Positions 51,729-63,007 of a stretch of DNA of 64,000 nucleotides are shown piece after piece. The notes beneath the pieces were generated by a model, which was given only the letters and a program-made list of their open reading frames with translations, searched no databases and had not been told where the DNA came from. Origin of the DNA: Psococerastis gibbosa (lineage: Eukaryota; Arthropoda; Insecta; Psocodea; Psocidae); NCBI GenBank assembly GCA_963971405.1, contig OZ020489.1:36551047-36615046 (forward strand). The letters run 5' to 3'. Within the stretch, counting starts at the first letter, position 1, and the number at the start of each line of letters is the position of its first letter. Both the position numbers and the translations under genes were made by a program.

Positions 51729-52274
51729 ATGAATTGTAGGAAACCATCAATGACGCCTAAGGATGCTCCCGCCATAGGTGAAGGAAGCAAACAGGTGGAG
51801 GAGCTGTATTCTATTGAAAAAGTTTTGTACAAACGAGTAAGCAGTGGAGTGGTGGAATCTTACTTAAAATGGAAGGGCTGCCCAGAAGACGAGAACACTT
51901 GTGTGCCTGAAAACAACATTAAATGCCCTGTGCTAATTGCCCAATTTGAAAAAGAAAACGTGAAGGAAGATGAAAAGGTCCCGTAGGAAAAGCCCCAAGT
52001 ACCAGCTTGGAATTCGCAAATTGCAGGTAATGAAGCAAGGACCAGAGGATTCGGCAGAGGCTTTGAGGCAGAGAAAATTATTGGTGTAGTCCTTAAGGAT
52101 GGCGAAACTTGGTTTTTGATGAAGTGGAAGGGTCTGGACGAAGCGGATTTGGTCCCAGCGGAGCAAGCGAATCTAAAATGTCCCCAGGTTGAAATTTCGT
52201 TTTATGAAGCAAGGCTCCAATGGAATGATTTCTACGACGCGACCGCTGACGACGAGACCTCTGACCACAAATAA
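51729..52274 (+). pseudogene. HP1-like ORF, unit A, interrupted
   Basis: This has the same layout as the intact copy of unit B: chromodomain, short hinge, chromoshadow domain, stop at 52272-52274. A TAG at 51984-51986 in the hinge splits the frame. The chromodomain half also carries changes at conserved positions (NTCVP in place of NTWVP, ESYLKWKG in place of EYYLKWKG). The chromoshadow half remains readable from the hinge to the normal stop. It has no introns. Confidence 0.88.
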
Positions 52275-52357
52275 CTTCAAAATTAGTATTCTTCTTCCCC
52301 CTTAATGCCGCTTGCGCAGCGTGACGGGCTGAAAGGGCCGTCTTGGGGGCGAGCCTT

Positions 52358-53598
52358 ATGAGATTCTTTAACGGGATTGGCACTGTGCAGTTTTCTAGGC
52401 AAGACATAATCAAAATACACAGAAAGGCTGACCGTTTATTTCATTTAGATGAACAATTAAAACAAGATAACACTAACAATATTGATTGGGAAGTTGAAAT
52501 TGAGGACATGGAACATTACAGAGATAAGTATGACGAAATTTGGGCCGAGTTGGAGAAGTCAGTGCACTCAGATGGAGAATCAGCAGTGTCAGTGAAACTG
52601 AAAGAGAACTCTCCTAAAAGTGCTAGGAAGGTGAAGCTTCCAGAACTTACAATTAGGCCATACGTTGGCACGTACCGTATGTATTTGTCGCTTTGGGGAC
52701 AATTTAAGAAGATACACGAGGACCAAACGATTTCGGATGAAGACAAATTTGAGTATCTCATCTCTGCAACTTTAGAGGATTCACCGGCGCGGGATTTCCT
52801 GGAAAAATTTCCTCCTTTGGGGTCAAATTACGCCATGCCGCTGCAGGCTTTACGTGAAAGGTTTGGTAACCCAAAAAAGTTAAAACAGTTTTATGTGAGA
52901 GAATTAATCAATATTGTGATGCAAAATAATGACAGAGATGGGGGGTTCTTTCTTCCCAAGATATATGATGCTCTTAATTCACATTTGTTGTCTCTACAGG
53001 CTTTGGGCGTTGTTAGGGATCAGTTAAACACGGTGTTATATCCCTTGGTGGAGATGGCTTTGCCTTTAGAGGTACTAACGCTGTGGCATAGGCAGAATGC
53101 CACATTGGTTTCTGTTTTAGGTACAGCAGATGAGGAAGATATGGACAGGTTACTCAAGTTTTTAAAAGCAGAGGCTGAGCGCATTTTAAATAATCAGCAT
53201 CGTTTGCAAGTCGATCAATTGGATAATATCCCTACGGCTCAAGCCTTATTGGCAAAAACAGCGGAGGCAAAGGGTAAACAATGCATTTTTTGCCCAAATA
53301 TTCGAAAAAATCATTATTCATGGCAATGTTTCATAGCATTGAAGATGACTTTAGCGGAAAGGTTACGCTGCATAAAAGAAAATATAGCCTGCATGAGATG
53401 TTTAAAAACAGGATCGCATGTTAGAAAAAATTGTCGATGTGACATTAGTTGTAGGCAATGTTCAAAACCACTTAACACATTGCCATGTGATGAAAACATT
53501 GCAAAAGAAAAGGCTCAAGTGCAGGATACACCTAGAGTGGTTAACACTTGCCAAACAACAGCGACTAATAGTAATAGCGAGTATGTTTACCTACAAAC
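52358..53598 (+). CDS. BEL/Pao gag (DUF1759-type), unit A
   Basis: This is the Gag-type structural region of a BEL/Pao retrotransposon. The frame runs without a stop from ATG 52358 (an in-frame stop lies at 52322) through a charged N-terminus, the DUF1759-type core (about 52640-53000, LPELTIRPYVGTYRMYLSLW region) and cysteine clusters (CMRCLKTGSHVRKNC; CRQCSKPL) near 53390-53490. At about 53598, just after YVYLQT, it meets antisense protease-region sequence of unit B. The open frame runs on by chance to 53833 through that antisense DNA, so the last 78 codons are not gag. Start ATG is 84 bases after the HP1 stop and in another frame. Confidence 0.85.
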
Positions 53599-60850: not shown

Positions 60851-62402
60851 GAGCATTGTTTACCTTTTGTCTCTGCTGTTTTTGCCATTACGGCTTCAGC
60901 CGTAGGGATATTACCCAATTGGTCGACTTCTCGGTACGATGTTACAGATTACTGGAACTTCTAATGCTTTAAGTCTTCAGTTACCAACACTTAGTTTGCC
61001 TGTAACTTCTAATTCAAATAGAGAGACCTCTTTTGGCAGAAGCTTGAAAACCCCAAAAACTCCCTGTAGGATTACCTTCTTTCCTATAGGGCTTGCTCCT
61101 ATCTTTTTTAATGAACAGCTGGCCACATATGTCCTTTGGCTGCCAGAATCAAACAGAGCCCTGGCCTTAACCCATCCTGACTTGCCCTTTACTTTGATAA
61201 TTACAGTTTGTAGGTAAACATACTCGCTATTACAATGATGTTTGGCAAGTGTTAACCACTCTATGTTTTCTTCACATGCCAATGTGTTAAGCGGTTTTGA
61301 ACATTGCCCACAACTAATGTCAGAGCGACAATTATTTCTAACATGCGATCCTGTTTTTAAACATCTCATGCAGGCTTTATTATCTTTTGTGCAGCGTAAC
61401 CTTTCCGCTAAAGTCATCTTCAATGCTATGAAACATTGCCATGAATAATGATTTTTTCGAATATTTGGGCAAAAAATGCATTGTTTACCCTTTGCCTCCG
61501 CTGTTTTTGCCAATAAGGCTTGAGCCGTAGGGATATTATCCAATTGATCGACTTGCAAACGATGCTGATTATTTAAAATGCGCTCAGCCTCTGCTTTTAA
61601 AAACTTGAGTAACTTGTCCATATCTTCCTCTGCGGTACCTAAAACAGAAACCAATGTGGCATTCTGCCTATGCCACAGCGTTAGTACCTCTAAAGGCAAA
61701 GCCATCTCCACCAAGGGAAAAAACAACGTGTTTAACTGATCCCTAACAACGCCCAAAGCCTGTAGAGACAACAAATGTGAATTAATAGCATCATATATCT
61801 TGGGAAGAAAGAAACCCCCATCTCAGTCATTATTTTGCATCACAATAATGATTAATTCTCTCACATAAAACTGTTTTAACTTTTTTGGGTTACCAAACCT
61901 TTCCCGTAAAGCCTGCAGCGCCATGGCGTAATTTGACCCCAAAGGAGGAAATTTTTCCAGTAAATCCCCGCGCTGGTGAACCCTCTAAAGTTGCTGAGAT
62001 GAGATACTCAAATTTGTCTTCATCCGAAATCGTTTGGTCCTCGTGTATCTTCTTAAATTGTCCCCAAAACGACAAATACATACGGTACGTGCCATCGTAT
62101 GGCCTAATTTTAAGTTCTGGAAGCTTCACCTTCCTAGCACTTTCAGGAGAGTTCTCTTTCAGTTTCACTGACACTGCTGATTCTCCATCTGAGTGCACCG
62201 ACTTCTCCAACTCGGCGCAAATTTCGTCATACTTATCTCTGTAATGTTCCATGTCCTCAATTTCAACTTCCCAATGAATATTGTTAGTGTTATCTTGTTT
62301 TAATTGTTCATCTAAATGAAATAAACGGTCAGCCTTTCTGTGTATTTTGATTATGTCTAGCCTAGAGAACTGCACAGTGCCAATCCCGTTAAAGAATCTC
62401 AT
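60851..62402 (-). pseudogene. BEL/Pao gag and protease start, unit F, frameshifted
   Basis: The minus strand reads gag from ATG 62402 with a frame break near 61965 (extra C in TCCCCGCGC) and another near 61825 (two-base loss before TCATTATTT). From 61774 to 60977 one frame carries the rest of gag, the cysteine clusters and the protease start (ALFDSGSQRTYVAS). It has the same shortened knuckle-protease joint (ENIEWLTLAKHHCNSEYVYL) as the second copy in unit E. Confidence 0.82.
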
Positions 62403-62482
62403 AAGACTCGCCCTCAAGACGGCCCTTTCAACCCTTTTTGCCCGTCACGCTGCGCAAGCGGCATTAAGGGGGAAGAAGAAAA

Positions 62483-63007
62483 CTAATTTTGAAGTAATTT
62501 GTGGTCAGAGGTCTCGTCGTCAGCGGGCGCGTCGTAGAAATCATTCCATTGGAGCCTAGCTTCATAAAACGAAATTACAACCTGGGGACATTTTAGATTC
62601 GCCTGCTCCGCTGGGACCAAATCCGCTTCGTCCAGACCCTTCCACTTAATCAAAAACCAAGTTTCGCCATCCTTAAGGGCTACACCAATAATTTTCTCTG
62701 CGTCAAAGCCTCTGCCGAATCCTCTGGTCCTTGCTTCATTACCTGCAATTTGCGAATTCCAAGCTGGTACTTGGGGCTTTTCCTCCGGGACCTTTTCATC
62801 TTCCTTCACGTTTTCTTTTTCAAATTGGGCAATATTGTTTTCAGGCACCCAAGTGTTCTCGTCAACTGGGCAGCCCTTCCATTTTAAGTAATATTCCACC
62901 ACTCCACTGCTTACTCGTTTGTCGAAAACTTTCTCAATAGAATACAGCTCCTCCACCTGTTTGCTTCCTAGAATAATAAGCTTCCTAGAACAATAAGCTG
63001 AATTCAC
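62483..63007 (-). CDS. HP1-like protein, nearly intact (unit F)
   Basis: This is a 174-codon open frame. The first residues differ from unit B because a deletion and a small duplication join the leader (GAATTCAGCTTATTG) to [14 protein letters not shown], so the first 18 codons of unit B are lost and an upstream ATG is used. Six residues (KCPELI) at the end of the chromodomain are missing, which shortens its last helix. Cage residues Tyr and Trp are kept and the third is again Cys. The chromoshadow domain is complete, with [13 protein letters not shown] changed C-terminus (stop shifted, ending KLLQN) results from a base change at the usual stop codon. Confidence 0.85.

Follow-up and report, generated by a model that had tools for sequence, protein, structure and literature searches.

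Chromodomains are known from retrotransposons with long terminal repeats (LTRs), in particular the Ty3/gypsy chromoviruses, where the domain sits at the C terminus of integrase; the chromodomain of Skipper has been compared with both domains of HP1 (PMC5006619). The locus described here lies in a window of 64,000 nucleotides (nt) from the psocid Psococerastis gibbosa (GCA_963971405.1, contig OZ020489.1, positions 36,551,047 to 36,615,046). It shares the LTR-element context with these elements, but its chromodomain and chromoshadow domain occupy a separate open reading frame (ORF) upstream of a BEL/Pao-type gag. Duplicates of the HP1 family in Drosophila comprise full and partial paralogs, as does our array, with the chromoshadow part preferentially retained in the fly; the parts of that study covered here contain neither a BEL/Pao fusion nor a palindromic array (PMC3380853). 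The hairpin-RNA (hpRNA) loci of flies, such as the hp-tHMG cluster and hp-ODox1/2, are likewise young inverted-repeat arrays of gene fragments. Among them, hp-ODox1/2 include transposon pieces and the tHMG cluster combines truncated with full paralogs, as our array does, but those loci are backed by small interfering RNAs (siRNAs) and transcripts, whereas the array here is known from sequence alone and its gene is HP1 (PMC10317233). With BEL/Pao retrotransposons the array has gag and weak protease and pol remnants in common, although paired LTRs were not found in it (PMC3118150). The main text of the same survey contains no occurrence of chromodomain, chromo domain or HP1 (PMC3118150), and the open-licence literature, as far as it was covered, yielded no case of a BEL/Pao element with an entire HP1.

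Self-comparison and a map of the labelled pieces resolved the locus into a nested palindrome at 50937-63771, built from six HP1-gag units (U1 to U6). From left to right it consists of a left arm, a bit of gag, a leader, U1 (+), U2 (-), U3 (+), an assembly gap of 200 N with gag sequence on both sides (56450-56649), U4 (-), U5 (+), U6 (-), a leader, a bit of gag and a right arm. Protease/gag sequence forms the tail-to-tail contact of U1 with U2 and of U5 with U6, and U3 and U4 would face each other in the same way on either side of the gap. The pairs U2/U3 and U4/U5, in turn, meet head to head at one and the same leader/HP1 junction, without a single difference in the 61 bases shown. Because of this shared junction, the six units do not amount to six independent observations. 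Unit pairs, whether inverted or direct, are 95.1-98.5% identical, and HP1 and gag are joined without a gap in all six. The units end at differing points of gag/pol, and the centres of the palindrome contain short pieces of gag, inverted or repeated; a protease-region piece of U2 (53600-53852, -), placed by the map and by junction comparison, lies at the centre of U1/U2, and a pair of short, oppositely oriented gag fragments (60799-60929) lies at that of U5/U6. The original prediction had described six half-units with HP1, spacer and gag in the same order. This order is indeed present in 6/6, yet the units share a fold-back junction and are not independent, and neither the gap nor the outer arms had been mentioned.

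We interpret the locus as a local, inverted, DNA-level amplification of one HP1-gag junction, a reading to which we assign a probability of about 0.56. In this scenario, a copy of an HP1-like gene, accompanied by its own leader, would have come to sit upstream of a BEL/Pao gag-pol fragment, at a distance of 83-92 nt. Fold-back or template-switching rearrangement of the DNA would then have multiplied this one junction into a nested palindrome, with the outermost two units carrying along approximately 0.8 kb of upstream DNA, namely, the 0.5-kb non-BEL arm, the gag bit and the leader. Both the DNA-level route and the single origin are what we infer from the arrangement. The first adjacency of HP1 and gag, in which no LTR intervenes, may have arisen by rearrangement beside the HP1 copy or by capture inside an element. 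Most copies are by now in decay. One junction followed by inverted duplication would explain why the head-to-head pairs have a fold-back junction in common, why the units end at odd points and why short pieces of gag occupy the centres. Independent insertions, by comparison, would not be expected to produce base-for-base identical U2/U3 and U4/U5 junctions, and six independent element copies were rejected as the default on account of that junction. The palindrome, the common junction, the scattered unit ends and the lack of paired LTRs fit DNA-level amplification better than six insertions. We also considered an inverted haplotype copy stitched onto the array and rejected it, as truncated units and units with a leader do not follow one another in the order that it would require.

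The prediction of an intronless HP1-like ORF was borne out by U2, the only intact copy. Its frame is uninterrupted at 55154-55726 (-), with 181 residues from the ATG (HP1-like ORF at 55154-55699, -). Pfam profile searches identified an N-terminal chromodomain (Chromo, PF00385, E 3.3e-22) and a C-terminal chromoshadow domain (Chromo_shadow, PF01393, E 4.5e-23), both well outside what chance would give, and the best match among solved structures is CBX5 (E 4.4e-39). The further claim that an entire HP1 accompanies gag holds for U2 and, as far as span is concerned, for U1 (51729-52274, +), which carries an in-frame stop; no other unit spans the whole ORF. Three copies are truncated at the 5' end: U3 (55835-56167, +), which retains hinge and chromoshadow domain and abuts the U2 leader head to head, has lost its first 214 nt, U4 (57184-57583, -) the first 145 nt and U5 (57645-57978, +) the first 213 nt. 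These losses remove about half of the chromodomain in U4 and nearly all of it in U3 and U5, and U4 and U5 each have an additional one-base frame change. In U6 (62497-62969, -), both the start (the first 53 nt) and the stop are gone, and 18 nt are deleted within the chromodomain. None of the six units has an intact HP1 together with an intact gag.

Downstream of HP1, the gag of U1 matches PF03564 (DUF1759, E 3.5e-16), which we take to be a BEL/Pao-type gag domain. Between the position of the HP1 stop and the gag ATG, U1 and U5 have 83 nt and the other four units (U2, U3, U4 and U6) have 92 nt, so that the constant spacer and fixed order claimed earlier are found in all six units, with the exceptions that the gag ATG is changed in U3 and the HP1 stop is lost in U6. 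The gag frame remains open over the stretch compared in U1 (spacer and gag, 52275-53599, +). It is broken by frame changes in U2 (53821-55153, -), in U4 (56650-57183, -, placed by the map) and in U6 (protease piece, gag and spacer, 60928-62494, -), the last of which also has an in-frame stop. U3, besides the loss of its ATG, is cut off by the assembly gap (56168-56449, +). U5 contains spacer, gag with one in-frame stop and the start of protease (57979-59377, +) and continues with a repeated gag/protease piece and pol remnants, including part of an integrase, most of the reverse transcriptase being missing (59400-60810, +). The protease is a weak Asp_protease_2 match below the cut-off, and the reverse transcriptase and integrase remnants were read by eye from motif patterns that we presume to be diagnostic; with the HMMER filters switched on, the scanned pol ORFs matched no reverse transcriptase or integrase family even at a threshold of E 10. 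A functional HP1-gag fusion protein was considered and found no support, since the HP1 stop intervenes, gag lies in another frame and both are neutral in pattern.

At the ends of the array, the left outer arm (50937-51418, +) is an inverted match (97.1%) to the right outer arm (63288-63771, -). Each arm is followed inward by a short fragment from the zinc-knuckle region of gag (51419-51552, +, 92.6% identical to 53282-53417; counterpart at 63153-63287, -) and then by the HP1 leader, giving an outer inverted match of 97.8% over 786 columns (50937-51719 / 62986-63771). That the arms match together with HP1 and gag in one inverted block supports local amplification. The leader is conserved wherever it is retained, as had been predicted, that is, in U1 (51553-51728, +), U2 (55700-55835, -) and U6 (62986-63152, -) and in part in U4 (57583-57645, -). 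The predicted order of leader, HP1 and gag also stands, although it was incomplete with respect to the gag fragment of about 134 nt that lies upstream of HP1 in both arms. The U1 leader contains, before the ATG, a stretch with a branch-site- and AG-acceptor-like appearance, and the arm contains a donor-like GTAAGT; both are candidate splice signals by the consensus that we assume and, as such, would speak for an HP1 copied at the DNA level.

The origin of the arms bears directly on the most serious rival explanation, an element-borne HP1, which we nevertheless consider unlikely. According to this hypothesis, there is a BEL/Pao lineage in which gag is preceded by, and co-transcribed with, an entire HP1 ORF, and the units are what is left of such elements, with the arms perhaps being remnants of 5' LTRs. 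The arms occupy the position of a 5' LTR in U1 and U6 and, judging from this placement, may be just that; their inverted order is no argument against it, because U1 and U6 point in opposite directions. However, the gag bit intervenes between arm and leader, no copy of the arm is found downstream of any gag/pol, and the frames of the arm are LINE-like. The translations of the right arm resemble what we take to be the decayed C terminus of a long interspersed element (LINE) followed by a tRNA-like tail. The open frames scanned in the arms gave no Pfam match, and neither a tRNA scan nor Rfam at the gathering score produced a match; at E up to 1 over 50900-51800, Rfam returned two sub-threshold matches, one of them tmRNA T-arm-like at 51387-51404. 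Within the window, arm sequence recurs beyond the two ends of the array only at 15517-15571, where 55 nt match the tRNA-like tail at 78%. A candidate primer-binding site at TGG 51379 was doubted by eye, as the tRNA-like loop comes 3 nt earlier than would suit a tRNA ending in CCA under the geometry that we assume. The LINE-like arm also suggests a LINE 3' transduction carrying HP1-gag, to which we give little weight.

Several further observations favor an element-borne HP1 and at the same time weigh against local amplification. No LTR lies in the short and constant spacer between HP1 and gag, and HP1 has gag both before and after it in U1 and U6, as would suit an HP1 inside a BEL-derived element. 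The position of the outer arms counts in the same direction; an unpaired LTR would escape repeat searches. The differences among units are mostly private to one of them, and a transposition burst would give the same star-like pattern as local amplification. Counting only against local amplification, the order of the array is uncertain because the gap breaks it, the left and right contigs might be separate loci that have arm-HP1-gag in common, all copies examined lie within the window, and neutrality tests are weak for one good copy among bad ones. On the other side stand the shared fold-back junction, the neutral pattern among copies and the absence of any unit with paired LTRs: repeat searches of the window recovered no LTR-like direct repeats around the units, although a lone LTR would escape recognition and just 229 bases lie to the right of the right arm. 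The intron-acceptor-like stretch in the leader, by the consensus that we assume, would also be odd for a reverse-transcribed passenger. As for a target-site duplication, none of the units has a recognizable 3' end that would provide a pair of flanks to compare; the two outer boundaries of the array were read, and they differ. The original prediction had left two readings standing, and the window favors the local amplification of an HP1 next to BEL/Pao, by virtue of the palindrome, the fold-back junction, the scattered ends and the lack of paired LTRs; a capture of HP1 by the element, with which it would then travel, is the less probable of the two.

The differences among the copies allowed us to look for selection. 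Over the common block, pairwise divergence is 1.06-3.59% (15 pairs), and 82 of 84 changes are private to one unit, a count that leaves out four tied columns and columns present in fewer than three units; in gag, the corresponding figure is 60/64. When changes were polarized against the majority base across units, the ratio of nonsynonymous to synonymous changes was 20:6 in HP1 (omega ~0.78, one-sided p 0.37) and 48:16 in gag (omega ~0.83, p 0.30). Neither HP1 nor gag thus looks to depart from neutral. Transitions and transversions number 38 and 46 overall and 5 and 16 in U1, and A>T accounts for 20 of the 84 changes (51945-62824).

The transversion excess in U1, at 16:5 what random base errors would give, makes assembly base errors a possible source of these changes. 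Together with the 200-N gap inside the array, flanked on both sides by gag, it is also the basis for suspecting an assembly artefact more generally, with part of the array or its order resulting from contigs joined wrongly or from base errors where the palindrome was not resolved. We regard such an artefact as very improbable, as the copies differ not only in the divergence given above but also by distinct truncations, U2-U3 and U4-U5 have the same orientation, unlike an inverted allelic copy, and the HP1-gag junction lies in gap-free sequence in every unit.

Regarding the HP1 protein itself, the original prediction had proposed that it could steer the element to chromatin methylated at lysine 9 of histone H3 (H3K9me). 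The positions of the aromatic cage and their roles in binding methyl-lysine are those that we assume for HP1 proteins in general. On this assumption, the Y and W of the cage are retained, and the third place is C in the array HP1 (WKGC), whereas it is Y in fly HP1 (WKGY) and F in CBX5; V also replaces the E in the NTWEPE motif of the fly chromodomain. The array HP1 therefore lacks the complete three-residue cage for H3K9me, which leaves its descent from HP1 unaffected. Binding of H3K9me is doubtful because of the change from WKGY to WKGC, and this change, together with the neutral pattern among copies, weakens the proposed steering. In the shadow domain, ISFY and RLxW are retained in the alignment with CBX5, presumably as contact residues for the dimer and for PxVxL partners. 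The U2 ORF could still yield a short HP1 with a sound-looking chromoshadow domain and a methyl-lysine cage that does not look sound; if expressed, the product would, on the residue roles that we assume, be more likely to dimerize with HP1s than to read H3K9me. A single-sequence structure prediction of this protein was poor (mean pLDDT 44.8) and was not used. In tblastn searches, HP1, gag and a pol ORF had no relative among viral contigs, nor HP1 among prokaryote contigs, which says little about an animal locus. The chromodomain of Skipper-2 differs from that of the array in that both its first and third cage residues have diverged (PMC5006619).

These features shape what an element-borne HP1 would do. 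A BEL/Pao element that had captured a complete HP1 as an extra ORF upstream of gag would possess a decoy or adaptor that binds host HP1 and PxVxL partners rather than a reader of H3K9me, and it might use it to tether particles or integration to heterochromatin or to blunt silencing. We consider this doubtful.

A different function would follow if the palindrome were transcribed. Its transcript might form long double-stranded RNA and be diced into siRNAs that target the BEL/Pao family, the parent HP1 gene or both, in the manner of fly hpRNA loci, in whose inverted arrays gene fragments likewise occur together with transposon fragments (PMC10317233). Moreover, an HP1 relative, HP1D2, has been described as a meiotic driver (PMC12224907). 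The U2/U3 RNA (54950-56370) is predicted to fold into one long stem of -1100.5 kcal/mol, but any such palindrome folds this way and the energy is given without a shuffle control at this length. The two arms of this stem pair over 615 nt at 99% and stand 348 nt apart, a long inverted repeat. We regard a hairpin-RNA locus as improbable.

Elsewhere in the window, a long ORF of [14 protein letters not shown] repeats (36785-39781) and an SRCR_2 domain (42904-43365, E 7.6e-11) are perhaps exons of one scavenger-receptor-type animal gene. To the left of the array, an inverted repeat of approximately 480 nt is 89.6% identical between 47167-47641 and 48416-48892. An interspersed repeat with inverted ends occurs at 22087-22470, 33032-33432 and 63907-64000, where the last copy is cut by the window edge, and a local repeat family occupies 10161-11125 with offsets near 130, 187 and 315 nt.

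In conclusion, if HP1 did prove to be element-borne, a whole HP1 in a BEL/Pao retrotransposon would give direct access to the ways in which retrotransposons cope with heterochromatin. Under the reading that we favor, a local palindrome, the locus would still be a young inverted array of HP1 and transposon sequence, and flies produce hairpin RNAs from structures of this kind (PMC10317233).

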